Positions 5,066 to 33,314 of a DNA stretch of 40,959 nt are shown piece after piece; within the stretch, counting starts at the first letter, position 1, and the number at the start of each line of letters is the position of its first letter. Position numbers and translations under genes: made by a program. The stretch is from Elusimicrobiales bacterium (GTDB lineage: Bacteria; Elusimicrobiota; Elusimicrobia; Elusimicrobiales; UBA9959). The notes beneath the pieces were generated by a model, which was given only the letters and a program-made list of their open reading frames with translations, made no database searches and had not been told where the DNA came from. The DNA is taken from the NCBI GenBank assembly GCA_023701245.1, contig JAMPXK010000002.1:1-40959 (forward strand), in the 5' to 3' direction.

Positions 5066-5977
5066 ATGAAGATATTTTGCTTGCTGTTCTGCGCGGCGGC
5101 CGTATCCGCTCCGGTACCGGCCGCAGCCATGGAACTCGGGGATGTGTATGGGGCGCTCTTGCTCGAACGCCCTGGGGTAGAGGCGCCGTCCGTGCCGCGG
5201 CCTGCCGGCAACTCGTTAAATGGCAGATTCTGCTGGACAGCAAACCCTGACCAGGACGGCGCCGGTCTTGGCATGCCCGTAGCTTTCTGCGTCAATTCCG
5301 CCCGCATTGTAAAAAAGGGCGACGCGTATGAGGCAGAGATCACCGGCCAGCCTTACGGCACCAGGCAACGCAACGCCTGGAAGACAACCAAAGGCTGGAA
5401 AGTCTCTATCTTTCATAACAGTGAGAATAGCGGTGCCTGCGATGAGGCCAGACATGCGGCCGTGAACGTGGAATTTGCCGTGGACGAACTCGGTTACATG
5501 ACCGGAGTTCCGGCCGCCGAGGGCTATTATGAGGAAACTCCTGACACCTGCCATAGCCAGTACGAGCGTAAAGAGATAAAGTTCAGCCGTTCGGGACTTG
5601 GCGCCGCGCGCTATGCCTGGCGCCGCGGTCCCTCCCAGCTGGCGGACGTGCTCGGTATGCCCGCGGAGATCTCGTTCGAGGGAGTATCCCTGCATGAAAA
5701 ACGGCTCGTGATAGAGAAGGGTGCCCCTTTGACGGGCAGTTTTCCCGCGCAGTTCCGCCAGACTGCCGGCGGTCTGCTGGTCGAGGCGGTGCTGTTCTCC
5801 GCGGGCACAGGCGGTGCCTGCACCGAGGGTACCATGGCCGAGGTCAGCGTCGCCTTTCTTGCGGGTCCGGACGGGGCCATACTGGCCGCGCCGGAACTTT
5901 CGGCACGCACCGGGAAGACCTGGGATGTTTGCCATTCGCCATTCGAATACTCGGAGATAGCATTTGACCTGAAGTGA
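5066..5977 (+). CDS. Uncharacterised secreted protein with internal duplication, Pho-box controlled
   Basis: I do not recognise the family. The 303-residue product has a signal peptide (about residues 1-21, ending AAAM) and should be periplasmic or exported. It is built of two copies of a module of roughly 107 residues, 69-175 and 197-303. Each begins with GMP, has a GAC motif (C125, C252), then a second cysteine (C162, C289) in a xTCHSxYE/VCHSPFEY context, and ends EIKF/EIAFD. The cysteine spacing is 37 residues in both copies, suggesting one disulfide per module. The start is fixed by a GGAGG site at 5054-5058. A four-repeat Pho box drives it and a terminator at 6002-6030 ends it, so it is a single-gene Pho transcription unit. 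Binding of phosphate or a phosphorylated compound is only a guess. Confidence 0.85.
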   Translation: MKIFCLLFCAAAVSAPVPAAAMELGDVYGALLLERPGVEAPSVPRPAGNSLNGRFCWTANPDQDGAGLGMPVAFCVNSARIVKKGDAYEAEITGQPYGTRQRNAWKTTKGWKVSIFHNSENSGACDEARHAAVNVEFAVDELGYMTGVPAAEGYYEETPDTCHSQYERKEIKFSRSGLGAARYAWRRGPSQLADVLGMPAEISFEGVSLHEKRLVIEKGAPLTGSFPAQFRQTAGGLLVEAVLFSAGTGGACTEGTMAEVSVAFLAGPDGAILAAPELSARTGKTWDVCHSPFEYSEIAFDLK

Positions 5978-6001
5978 GTCCTGCGCTAAGCCATAGACCG
6001 A

Positions 6002-6030
6002 CGCCGCCGGCCGCCCGGCGGCGTTTCTTT
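6002..6030 (+). terminator. Rho-independent terminator
   Basis: A perfect 9-base stem (6002-6010 with 6015-6023) encloses the loop CCGC and is followed by TTTCTTTT. It closes the transcription unit of the duplicated secreted protein. Confidence 0.9.
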
Positions 6031-6165
6031 TCGCGTAAGGCCCTGAAGTCCCATAAAAGACTGGGTACAAAGACCGCGTCAGACTGGGCCGATGGTTCCT
6101 GTCGACCCGGTTTTTTTAATTATACAGTAACAGTAGTCGACCGACTCTTTAAGGGGACCTTGTCC

Positions 6166-7578
6166 ATGAATATTAAAAAATTGCTTCTGAACCTCCTGGC
6201 CGCGGCGTCGCTTGCGGCGTTCTCGGCCTCGTCCGCCCTGGCCGGCGCTTACGCGCAACTTGGCGATTACGTCGGAGTGGAGACCATTGCGGAAGTGCCG
6301 CAGGTTTCCGCGCAGGAAACTGACCGCGGTGACAGGTACCAGCCGTGGCTTTCTCTGGCCTCTTTCAAAGGTAGTACTTTCCTGCAGTTCCTTTCGGCCC
6401 CCAATGGGCTCAAGGCCGCTTTCGACCGCGACGCCAAGACCCCGTTCAACTTCGTGAACAAGGAGAAGTTCCTGGTTGGCGCCGCGCAGTTCGACCCGGC
6501 CGTCTATGCAAAACTGGCTAAGTCCATTAAGGGGGGAGAGCAAGGCATGGGCGAGCTGGCCGACGCCCTCAACGGAGCCCAGGCCACCTCCATTACCGCC
6601 TCCGGTCCCATTGCCGATAAACTTAAGACGCACAACCTGGCTTCGCCGTCCCGCATAGGCCTCACCGCGGTGATCTTCGCCCCTGTATTCGCGCTGCTCT
6701 CCGGCTCCGGAGTACCGGTGCTGCTGGATAATAACAATTATTTTCTTAATGTGGGCTACAAGTCCGGCGCCAATCCGGCCGAGTTGGAAAAGGACGTTAA
6801 ATCCGGCCGCAGCTACGGCGCCTCGCCCATGCACAAGCCGCTCGACGTCTCCGATAAGTACTATCTGCAGGAACTGCATCAGTACCTGACCTCCGCCCCT
6901 GACGCCGCGCCTTTCTACAAAACCATGATGGAACTCCTGGTTTCCTGCGACCCTTCCGGCCTGGCCGCGCTGCCGGCCCCGGCCCAGGGCGTGCTGACCG
7001 ACTTCACCGCCGTCTACGCCGCCGAACTGGACCGCTACGCTATGACCGGCTTCAAGAAGCATCCCTGGCAGAACGACCTGGCCGAGGCCACGCTGGTGTC
7101 CGCCTTCGCAGCCCCGTCGGAGCGCGTGGTTATAGATGGCAAGTTCGTCAAAGGCGATCCAACCAGTTTCTTCGGAGTGGGCACAAACGGCAGCGGCATC
7201 GGCATCCGCCGCAAGGACCGCCGCACGCTGCAGGCCTCCGTGTTGGAGTACGAGCGCCTCCATCACCCGGAACTGGTGGCCAAAGTGGAAGACCTCATAG
7301 GCCGCAAGGGAGGCGACGTTTTTCACAATGTGATGCTTTTTCTCAATTATCCCTCCAACCAGCCTAAGGTACAGGCCAGGGCCGTCGAACTGGTTCGGGC
7401 TATGACCGCGCTGATGGCGCAGGTGCACGCCGATTCCGTGCAGATCACCGAACATATAGTGCTCGGCGGCCTGCAGAACCAGCAGGAAGCGGATTCGGCC
7501 AACGAGACTTCCGGGCACGCGGACGAAGACGTTCAGGACAAGGACTATGGGCAGTTCCTGGCCCAGTATGCTTTCTGA
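6166..7578 (+). CDS. Uncharacterised secreted protein, coupled to NADAR lipoprotein
   Basis: I do not recognise this 470-residue protein. It starts with a clear Sec signal peptide (MNIKKLLLNLL, alanine-rich core, cleavage near ALA|GAYA), so it acts outside the cytoplasm. The rest is soluble-looking, with a tryptophan-containing early segment (RYQPWLSLASF), several small hydrophobic stretches, a double Cys-poor core and an acidic C-terminal tail. The start at 6166 is chosen because an AAGGGGA site lies 8 bases upstream and the signal peptide begins there; the frame is open further upstream but that stretch crosses the terminator at 6002-6030. A TATACA element at 6121 may be the -10 box. Its 3' end overlaps the start of the NADAR gene by 11 bases, which argues for translational coupling and a joint function. 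Confidence 0.8.
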   Translation: MNIKKLLLNLLAAASLAAFSASSALAGAYAQLGDYVGVETIAEVPQVSAQETDRGDRYQPWLSLASFKGSTFLQFLSAPNGLKAAFDRDAKTPFNFVNKEKFLVGAAQFDPAVYAKLAKSIKGGEQGMGELADALNGAQATSITASGPIADKLKTHNLASPSRIGLTAVIFAPVFALLSGSGVPVLLDNNNYFLNVGYKSGANPAELEKDVKSGRSYGASPMHKPLDVSDKYYLQELHQYLTSAPDAAPFYKTMMELLVSCDPSGLAALPAPAQGVLTDFTAVYAAELDRYAMTGFKKHPWQNDLAEATLVSAFAAPSERVVIDGKFVKGDPTSFFGVGTNGSGIGIRRKDRRTLQASVLEYERLHHPELVAKVEDLIGRKGGDVFHNVMLFLNYPSNQPKVQARAVELVRAMTALMAQVHADSVQITEHIVLGGLQNQQEADSANETSGHADEDVQDKDYGQFLAQYAF

Positions 7579-8248
7579 GCACCGTCCGCTGACCGAGCGG
7601 ATCTTTTTAGCGGCGCTGCTGCTCTGTGGCTGTGCCGGGGTCCGGGCGGCCTATCCCCGCGCCTGGTGGGAACCCCTTCCTCCAGAAAAGACCGCCTCCT
7701 GGGAAGTGCCGCCGCAGGCCGCCGGCCCCGGCGAAGTCATCCTCTCCAAGCGCAACGAACTCGGCCTTCTTTCCAATTTCTCCCACGCGCCTTTCGAACT
7801 GGACGGCGCCCGCTACGCCAGCCTCGAGGGCTTCTGGCAGATGATGCTTTATCCCGAAGGCCCCGAGGACCCCCGGGCGCTTTTTCCCGGCCTGGAGTGG
7901 AAATATACCCGCGAGCAGGTAGCCGGTATGACCGCCTTCGAGGCCAAGTCCGCCGGCGACATGGCCTGGGCCAATATGAAGAAGATGGGGATCAACTGGG
8001 TGACCTACCGCGGCGTACCTATGGATTACTATGTGGCTGAGAAAGGCCCACATTATGACCTCATAGTCCGCGCGACCAGGGCCAAGGTGGAGCAGAACCC
8101 GCAGGTAAAGCGCGTGCTGCTGGCCACCTCCGGGCTGAAGCTGCGCCCGGACCACCGCCAGCCCGCCGATGCCCCGCCGTCCTGGAAATATTTCGACATC
8201 TACATGGAACTCAGGGATACGGAACTGAAAGCTGCTCCCGCGCGCTGA
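7568..8248 (+). CDS. Exported NADAR-domain (YbiA-like) lipoprotein
   Basis: The 226-residue product matches the NADAR/YbiA fold: LSNFSHAPFELDG, then YASLEGFWQ (the S-x-E-x-x-x-Q element), a tryptophan segment INWVTYRG, the helix RATRAKVEQNP, then VLLATSGLKLRPD and a closing DIYMELRD. Known NADAR proteins are cytosolic N-glycosidases acting on early riboflavin intermediates or on ADP-ribosylated guanine bases. Here the N terminus (ERIFLAALLLCGCAG) is a hydrophobic signal with a plausible lipobox LCGC, so the enzyme seems exported, which is unusual. The start at 7568 overlaps the upstream stop; an in-frame ATG at 7547 would add 7 residues. It is followed at once by a terminator. Its exported substrate is unknown. 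Confidence 0.75.
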   Translation: MLSEHRPLTERIFLAALLLCGCAGVRAAYPRAWWEPLPPEKTASWEVPPQAAGPGEVILSKRNELGLLSNFSHAPFELDGARYASLEGFWQMMLYPEGPEDPRALFPGLEWKYTREQVAGMTAFEAKSAGDMAWANMKKMGINWVTYRGVPMDYYVAEKGPHYDLIVRATRAKVEQNPQVKRVLLATSGLKLRPDHRQPADAPPSWKYFDIYMELRDTELKAAPAR

Positions 8249-32231: not shown

Positions 32232-33314
32232 ATGCTGAAAACCCGAGCCCTGTTGACTCTTCTGCCGCTGCTGCTGCCTTCCGTGCTGACGGCCTACAAT
32301 ACCCGGGAGCATAAAGAATTCGCCGCCGCAGCAGCGCTGGCCGCCTGCCCGGCCGATACCCCTCTCTGCGCCGAACTGAACGCCAACCTGCCTTTTTTCC
32401 TCTACGGCTCCATCCACGAGGACGAGGCCGTTAAGGGCCACAAGGCGGTCTTCAACGGCGTGGAGTTCCGCGAAGAAGAGCCGGAGCGCTACGGCCCCTG
32501 CAGCGAGTACGTGGTGGCGGGCAAGAAGCACATGTACTGCAACCATTACTTTTTTCTCGACAGCTTCCTGGCCGGCAAGGAAGAGGGCAGCTGCGGCGGC
32601 AACATGCTGGGCGCCACCGACCCGGATTGCGGCCCCGGCGGCTTCCGGTGGGAGAGCGCCCGCCAGCGCGGCCTGCGCCTGTGGGCGGAAAAAGTGATGC
32701 CCCATTATAATTCCGGCAAGCCGGAAGGCAAAGCCCGGGCCTATTACTGGCTGGGCCGCGTGGCCCATTTGCTGGCGGATGTGGCCGTGCCCGCGCACGA
32801 TATCCCCCACAAGATGGGCCACGTAGAGTTCGAACACCGCTGCTTCGAGTACGAGGCCTCCCGCATGGAGGCCGGCCCGCTGCCGGCTTTGCCGCGGGAC
32901 GAAAACATCAGCTCCCTTTATGTGGAACTGGCCCGCAACACCCTCTCCGTGCACGACGCCGTGCGCGCCGAAGAATGCCGCTTCTCCCCGCTGCTTAAGG
33001 GCTGCGAGCGGCTGCGCGCCACTCCCACCCTGCCGCTGGAGTCGGGCAGCTTGATCCGCGACTCCCTGCTTACCGACGCTATCATGAAGTCTAAATCTTC
33101 CGCCCTCAATAAGCCGGAGATAATCGCCGAACGCCAGCTGGCGCGCCGCCAGCTTGAACTTATAAGGCCGCTGACCGTCGCCTATACCGCCCGCCTGCTG
33201 GAACTGTTCGGCGCCCAGGCTGGACTCGCGGTCAAAGATCTGGAAGTCCCCGCTGAAGCGCCCGCCTGCGCCTTCGAAGGCCGCGTTGTGCGCTTTGACG
33301 GCGCACCGCGCTGA
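32232..33314 (+). CDS. Secreted zinc-dependent phospholipase C / nuclease-like protein
   Basis: The 360-residue protein has a signal peptide (MLKTRALLTLLPLLLPSVLT|AYN). It resembles the zinc-dependent phospholipase C/P1 nuclease superfamily, with an early histidine near the mature N terminus (NTREHKEFA), IHEDEAVKGHK, and the core YYWLGRVAHLLADVAVPAHD followed by HKMGHVEFEH. These supply the His/Asp/Glu ligands expected for a trinuclear zinc site. Six or so cysteines (CSEY, MYCNH, SCGG, DCGP) suggest disulfides. It would cleave phospholipids or another phosphodiester outside the cell. TAAAAT at 32220-32225 lies 6 bases before the ATG, so the mRNA is probably leaderless. It is not close to the Pho island. 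Confidence 0.65.
   Translation: MLKTRALLTLLPLLLPSVLTAYNTREHKEFAAAAALAACPADTPLCAELNANLPFFLYGSIHEDEAVKGHKAVFNGVEFREEEPERYGPCSEYVVAGKKHMYCNHYFFLDSFLAGKEEGSCGGNMLGATDPDCGPGGFRWESARQRGLRLWAEKVMPHYNSGKPEGKARAYYWLGRVAHLLADVAVPAHDIPHKMGHVEFEHRCFEYEASRMEAGPLPALPRDENISSLYVELARNTLSVHDAVRAEECRFSPLLKGCERLRATPTLPLESGSLIRDSLLTDAIMKSKSSALNKPEIIAERQLARRQLELIRPLTVAYTARLLELFGAQAGLAVKDLEVPAEAPACAFEGRVVRFDGAPR

Follow-up and report, generated by a model that had tools for sequence, protein, structure and literature searches.

A divergent, probably exported NADAR protein in an Elusimicrobiales genome and the signal-bearing clade to which it belongs

NADAR proteins hydrolyze ribosyl-nitrogen bonds, with riboflavin intermediates and N2-ADP-ribosyl-guanine as known substrates. 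Those treated in the papers we found are cytoplasmic or viral and belong to nucleic-acid repair, toxin-antitoxin systems, or riboflavin damage control. As antitoxins they act against DarT1 and YarT and reverse the ADP-ribosylation of guanosine in DNA and RNA (PMC11543638, PMC11125620, PMC11833690), and all tested subtypes, including YbiA and T4 gp30.3, hydrolyze ADP-ribosyl-guanosine (PMC11125620). The key residues are Glu43/Glu88, Lys50/Lys95, and Glu125/Asp171 in the P. nicotianae and E. coli C7 proteins, respectively; Lys95 is essential in the characterized DarT1-linked NADAR of E. coli C7, and the third catalytic position can be Glu, Asp, or His depending on the subfamily (PMC11543638). 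In the open-access papers covered, we found no description of exported NADARs.

The window analyzed here, a stretch of 40,959 nt from an Elusimicrobiales genome, contains an overlapping gene pair (Table 1) that an earlier note had read as an exported NADAR lipoprotein coupled to a secreted protein without a known family. We call the secreted protein P0001 and the NADAR-fold protein P0002.

Table 1. Features of the P0001-P0002 gene pair in window coordinates
Feature	Position	Strand	Basis or remark
Intrinsic-terminator-like hairpin between the upstream gene and the pair	6000..6025	+	
P0001, secreted 470-aa protein, family unassigned	6166..7578	+	start ATG 6166
Sec signal peptide of P0001, MNIKKLLLNLLAAASLAAFSASSALA followed by GAY	6166..6243	+	sequence
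P0002, predicted exported NADAR-fold protein	7547..8248	+	ATG 7547 (233 aa) or ATG 7568 (226 aa); stop 8248
Signal sequence of P0002 with lipobox L-C-G-C	7568..7633	+	predicted modified Cys, C22 (7631-7633)
NADAR domain, conserved region Y29-D217	7652..8218	+	A1 invariant columns, pLDDT >90
S60-K61-R62-N63-E64 loop, hallmark of the exported clade	7745..7759	+	not in YbiA
Glu87, equivalent of catalytic Glu43 (P. nicotianae)/Glu88 (E. coli C7)	7826..7828	+	hhalign to YbiA-type set
Leu94, site of phosphate-binding Lys50/Lys95	7847..7849	+	alignment to YbiA-type set
Asp195-His196, region of the third catalytic residue	8150..8155	+	Glu in YbiA, Asp in BC4488-type, His in phage NADARs
Intrinsic-terminator-like hairpin just 3' of the P0002 stop codon	8271..8293	+	

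NADAR identity and active site of P0002

By curated HMMs alone, P0002 would be judged a non-NADAR. It scores 14.4 bits against the Pfam NADAR model PF08719 (gathering cut-off 35.1), 20.1 against the riboflavin-intermediate N-glycosidase equivalog TIGR02464 (cut-off 73.7), and 24.9 against PF08010 (Phage_30_3; cut-off 36). All 41 sequences of the family alignment A1 show a weak match to PF08719 and some match to PF08010, and a two-NADAR protein from L020, discussed below, reaches 34.5 against PF08719. Profile-profile and fold comparison overturned the negative verdict. With hhalign, the match was 98.7% to a YbiA-type set and 98.6% to a second NADAR type. The AlphaFold model of P0002, for which A1 was the input, has a pLDDT of 92.4 and a pTM of 0.84, with pLDDT above 90 throughout the conserved region, and the only above-noise matches that Foldseek returned from the PDB were E. 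coli YbiA (2B3W, E 9.9e-5, probability 1.00) and the P. nicotianae NADAR-ADP-ribose complex (8BAU, E 8.9e-3, probability 1.00). Named matches in a viral structure library were mostly NADAR proteins as well. P0002 is, by these sequence and model comparisons, a divergent NADAR, weak by curated HMM but firm by profile-profile alignment and fold, and we regard the NADAR fold itself as nearly certain; the domain named in the earlier note thus stands despite the sub-cut-off Pfam score. Because homologs keep 48-80% identity across phyla, P0002 is not a chance open reading frame.

Conservation at the active site is uneven. Across 70 distinct clade sequences, Glu87 is present in every one, as is Asp195, and His196 occurs in 68, with an alignment register in this region, on the last strand, that is uncertain by one residue. 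Position 94, where the essential lysine would be expected, is Lys in 49 of the 70 sequences, Leu in 16 (P0002 included), and another residue in 5. Of the active-site residues, whose loss would have spoken against the earlier note, Glu87 and Asp195-His196 are kept and the lysine is not, a substitution that the note did not notice. Since the Lys95 equivalent is Leu94 in P0002, and is not Lys in 21/70 sequences, the phosphate-binding site as aligned differs from that of the E. coli C7 NADAR. The SKRxE loop, with S, K, and R in 70/70 sequences and E in 69/70, is close to universal in the clade and might substitute for the lysine in binding phosphate. On balance, we predict that P0002 is likely to be catalytically competent.

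The clade shares some traits with described NADAR types and differs from them in others. YbiA-type N-glycosidases (COG3236, TIGR02464) have in common with it the NADAR fold, the SNF motif, a first long helix that bears the catalytic Glu, and the acid/His region near the C-terminus. YbiA has no signal sequence, however, whereas proteins of the exported clade carry a longer YPxxWW...WEILPQ segment at the N-terminus, the SKRxE loop, and EGFWQMM in place of the EHYFQAQK of YbiA, and they form a separate branch in the tree. With the DarT1-associated antitoxins of E. coli C7 and G. lovleyi, P0002 shares the Glu88 equivalent and an Asp as in Asp171, but it differs in having Leu94 for Lys95, no DarT neighbor, and a predicted export signal. 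The closest relatives by motif are the phage-type NADARs (T4 gp30.3, PF08010) and the SLEGFLQ type found at loci L055 and L056, a likeness seen in the SLEGF.Q motif, the His at the third site, and a 50.9-bit match to phrog_652. Against this stand the PF08010 score of P0002, which lies below the cut-off, and the absence of a signal sequence from the L055 and L056 proteins.

Export, ancestry, and the partner gene

Either possible start of P0002 retains the hydrophobic segment IFLAALLLCGC, and an AAGG lies just 5' of ATG 7547. There is no later ATG upstream of the NADAR domain. The next in-frame GTG is codon 48, and initiation there would remove the nearly invariant P30, W33, W45, and E46, so no usable start exists downstream of the signal; the sequence gives no sign of a cytosolic form, and export signals are found clade-wide. 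The lipobox is of a tolerated but unusual kind, with Cys at −2, and the nearest ortholog, in sister genome G018, has a canonical LGGC. The earlier note's claim of a lipoprotein is thus upheld for the signal and its LCGC lipobox and weakened by the atypical form of that lipobox, as processing by signal peptidase I, with the cut behind VRAA, is conceivable instead of lipidation. We consider it very probable that P0002 is exported, and in the window lineage it is probably lipid-anchored, facing the periplasm or the cell surface.

The trait extends well beyond the window. In a scan by simple script, an N-terminal hydrophobic segment was found in 69 of the 70 distinct homologs; the set counts copies internal to fusions as well as L051, which is probably a frame artefact. 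A permissive lipobox pattern, applied as a simple regular expression, matched 38/70, and nearly all the others have a signal of the signal peptidase I type. Practically every stand-alone member carries a signal peptide or lipobox, and the signal-less members lie C-terminal to a nucleotide pyrophosphatase/phosphodiesterase or to a putative S1/P1-nuclease-like domain. Judged by these signals, export is a conserved trait of the whole clade. Two apparent long fusions (L070/L097 and L076/L099) were set aside, since each is just a long open frame in a GC-rich stretch and the lipoprotein has a start of the usual kind.

The clade comprises at least 70 distinct proteins from about ten phyla, among them Verrucomicrobiota, Planctomycetota, Acidobacteriota, Bdellovibrionota, Myxococcota, Ignavibacteriota, Eiseniibacteriota, and the window's own phylum, and single MAGs assigned to Pseudomonadota and Actinomycetota supply further members. 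Its density varies greatly: 89/291 genomes, one of them a marginal match, were matched in the phylum of a Bdellovibrionota member, and strong matches were found in 3/297, 2/241, and 5/294 genomes of three other sampled phyla. In the window's phylum, 1/248 genomes gave a strong match, and a second, marginal match is a canonical NADAR. Of the 121 related genomes sampled, a total that counts the window genome, 2 carry the exported NADAR. In the tree, P0002 and its G018 ortholog (76% identical) fall among sequences from Bdellovibrionota, with supports of 97/85 and 96/87, and the deepest and most diverse branches of the clade also come from Bdellovibrionota. Because the window copy is nested among Bdellovibrionota sequences, its lineage probably gained the gene horizontally. 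A phage or plasmid source was considered and dropped, as neither phage and plasmid records nor IMG/VR contained a close relative. No canonical NADAR is encoded in the window genome, and among 15 genomes of the exported clade that were checked, a single one carries such a protein above the cut-off.

P0001 has a plain Sec signal peptide ending in SALA before GAY, and its homologs in G029 and G018 have signal peptides too. Profile searches of Pfam, NCBIfam, PHROGs, and the PDB found no relatives, in agreement with the secreted protein of no known family described in the earlier note, and the AlphaFold model (pLDDT 41) is not usable. P0001 occurs in five genomes of the class, namely the window's own (G000), G018 and G029 at the genus level, and G266 and G268 at the class level, with one further, marginal match. 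This distribution marks it as a lineage-specific secreted protein by sequence. Distant relatives with long N-terminal extensions are encoded at L113 and L114, in genomes of the same class.

The two window genes do overlap, by 32 nt if P0002 starts at ATG 7547 or by 11 nt if it starts at ATG 7568. Given the terminator-like hairpins on either side, they look like one short transcription unit; such hairpins as a class number 8 in the window against a shuffled mean of 5.1 (sd 2.5), which is not clearly above expectation. Both genes occur together in two genomes only, G000 and G018, and in the latter they are adjacent but divergent. The proposed pairing is therefore borne out by the overlap in the window and by recurrence in G018 and in no other genome, and a functional coupling between the NADAR and the 470-aa protein is weaker than was first proposed. 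That P0001 might serve as a cofactor or binding partner of P0002 is a guess.

Fusions, neighbors, and possible roles

The neighborhoods of exported NADARs are mostly not conserved, and those with nucleotide-related genes are a few among about 38 loci. At L018, a 635-aa protein consists of a PF01663 nucleotide pyrophosphatase/phosphodiesterase (E 2.6e-49) followed by a C-terminal NADAR. In the Acidobacteriota loci L020 and L026, a signal-bearing domain precedes two NADARs; this first domain has the S1/P1-nuclease-like motifs AWGxxGHH and HFIGDQAQPYH, and in L020 it shows a weak match to PF02265 (E 0.005 for the whole protein, 0.19 for the domain alone) and no match in the PDB. Genes for an IU nucleoside hydrolase with a signal sequence (PF01156, 3e-78), for a PfkB kinase, and for a permease lie upstream of the L020 gene. 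At L042, the exported NADAR gene is preceded, 57 nt upstream, by one for an exported protein of the UDG superfamily, and a DeoC-type aldolase lies near the NADAR of L025. The L042 neighbor (5521-7923, 801 aa, PF03167 at 25.8 bits) is itself of interest as a second apparently secreted glycosylase. In L098 (331-1860), NADAR is fused to a second domain without a known family (SIGH...GCSAFG), an apparent homolog of which is the divergent gene next to the NADAR gene in L105 (7020-7718 and 7842-8714). In the Bdellovibrio-like loci L100-L103, a class-V aminotransferase gene begins within about 6 nt after the NADAR lipoprotein gene, which faces a metallo-beta-lactamase-like gene, and a Fic-domain protein is encoded further downstream in L101.

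The phosphodiesterase fusion and the putative S1/P1-nuclease-like fusion, together with the nucleoside-salvage genes beside the latter, make nucleotide or ADP-ribosyl debris our best guess for the new substrate that the earlier note called for. Catalytic activity, substrate, and salvage role of P0002 are all inferred. P0002 would be exported through Sec and held by a lipoprotein anchor facing the periplasm or the cell surface, where it would cleave the ribose-nitrogen bond of ribosyl-phosphate compounds outside the cytoplasm. Its substrates could be ADP-ribosyl adducts, or the nucleotide fragments left by nuclease and pyrophosphatase attack, and its activity would be one step in the breakdown of nucleotides from dead or consumed cells. 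The high frequency of the clade in the phylum of a Bdellovibrionota member and the place of P0002 in the tree fit this reading, as B. bacteriovorus is believed to draw nucleotides from its prey and upregulates a secreted nuclease (PMC12546842). Ecto-nucleotide pyrophosphatases/phosphodiesterases and secreted nucleoside hydrolases likewise take part in extracytoplasmic nucleotide breakdown, but the PF01663 and PF01156 enzymes have folds unrelated to NADAR and are partners here (the L018 fusion and the L020 neighbor), not relatives. We put the chances about even that P0002 is an extracytoplasmic N-ribosyl hydrolase in the salvage of nucleotide or ADP-ribosyl debris. The wider proposition, that a widespread and probably Bdellovibrionota-derived clade cleaves ribosyl-nitrogen bonds in ADP-ribosyl and nucleotide compounds that are extracellular or come from prey, is offered tentatively, somewhat short of an even chance. 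If true, it would give NADARs a substrate and a compartment absent from the papers we found and carry ADP-ribose and nucleotide chemistry beyond the cytoplasm.

A protective role would start from the same chemistry. Exported NADARs could act as immunity or de-modification factors, stripping ADP-ribose set on extracytoplasmic DNA, RNA, or surface molecules by secreted or contact-delivered ADP-ribosyltransferases (ARTs). The antitoxin function of known NADARs and the patchy, horizontally moved distribution of the clade would suit a defense gene. However, Pfam scans of P0001, of the flanking window genes, and of the clade-member neighbors examined detected no ART domain; the known DNA and RNA targets of ARTs are cytoplasmic, and the fusion partners are a phosphodiesterase and a putative nuclease, not ARTs. 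We regard protection as unlikely.

The concentration of the clade in the phylum of a Bdellovibrionota member, against 1-2% of genomes or fewer elsewhere, and the deep Bdellovibrionota branches raise the alternative that these proteins are predation factors, acting in the envelope or cytoplasm of prey, with occasional transfers to other lineages. Members also occur, however, in phyla not known for predation, and lipoprotein anchoring speaks against free release. We regard this role as quite unlikely. A conserved exported clade across about ten phyla would imply either that ADP-ribosylation or ribosylamine chemistry takes place outside the cytoplasm, or that NADARs also scavenge nucleotides, possibly during predation. 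A pure binding protein for nucleotide or ADP-ribose ligands, catalysis having been lost with the essential lysine in P0002 and 15 others of the 70, is distinctly improbable given the Lys94 of most members and the near-invariance of E87, D195, H196, W206, and the K61-R62-E64 loop over about ten phyla, a degree of conservation not expected of proteins that have lost their function.

The phosphate-gene island

The pair sits amid genes for CYTH, PPK1, alkaline phosphatase, a secreted 303-aa protein, Porin_5, PstSCAB, PhoU, DUF47, and PiT, a setting that suggested membership in a local Pho regulon and a role in freeing phosphate from ribosyl phosphates during phosphate starvation. The mid-island position near alkaline phosphatase and the porin fits this, as does the phosphodiesterase fusion of the related L018 protein. 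The island contains TTTACC direct repeats with an 11-nt period at 1083, 4973, 8299, 10516, and 13899, all on the + strand, lying shortly upstream of PPK1, the gene at 5066, the porin, PstC, and DUF47-PiT and nowhere else in the window (three hexamers scoring at least 14 of 18, a pattern noticed and scored in the same window). A plain search for the pattern gave 43 matches against 17.6 expected, and the classical E. coli Pho-box pattern gave chance matches only. With their PhoB-box geometry, the repeats are a candidate Pho box of the window lineage. Five units of the island have them, but the P0001-NADAR promoter region does not (best score 11 of 18), and for this reason we make no case for Pho control of P0001 and P0002. 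The terminator-like hairpins that bound the pair, and the genes shown around it in G018, which are not phosphate genes, also argue against a phosphate-starvation function, which the repeat scan lowered to very unlikely.

Two other genes of the window deserve mention. The secreted 303-aa protein (5066-5977) has no Pfam or NCBIfam match and lies directly behind the strongest candidate Pho box, which makes it a candidate phosphate-starvation protein. At 32232-33314, a signal-bearing protein shows a weak, sub-cut-off match (22.3 bits) to the zinc-dependent phospholipase C family PF00882.
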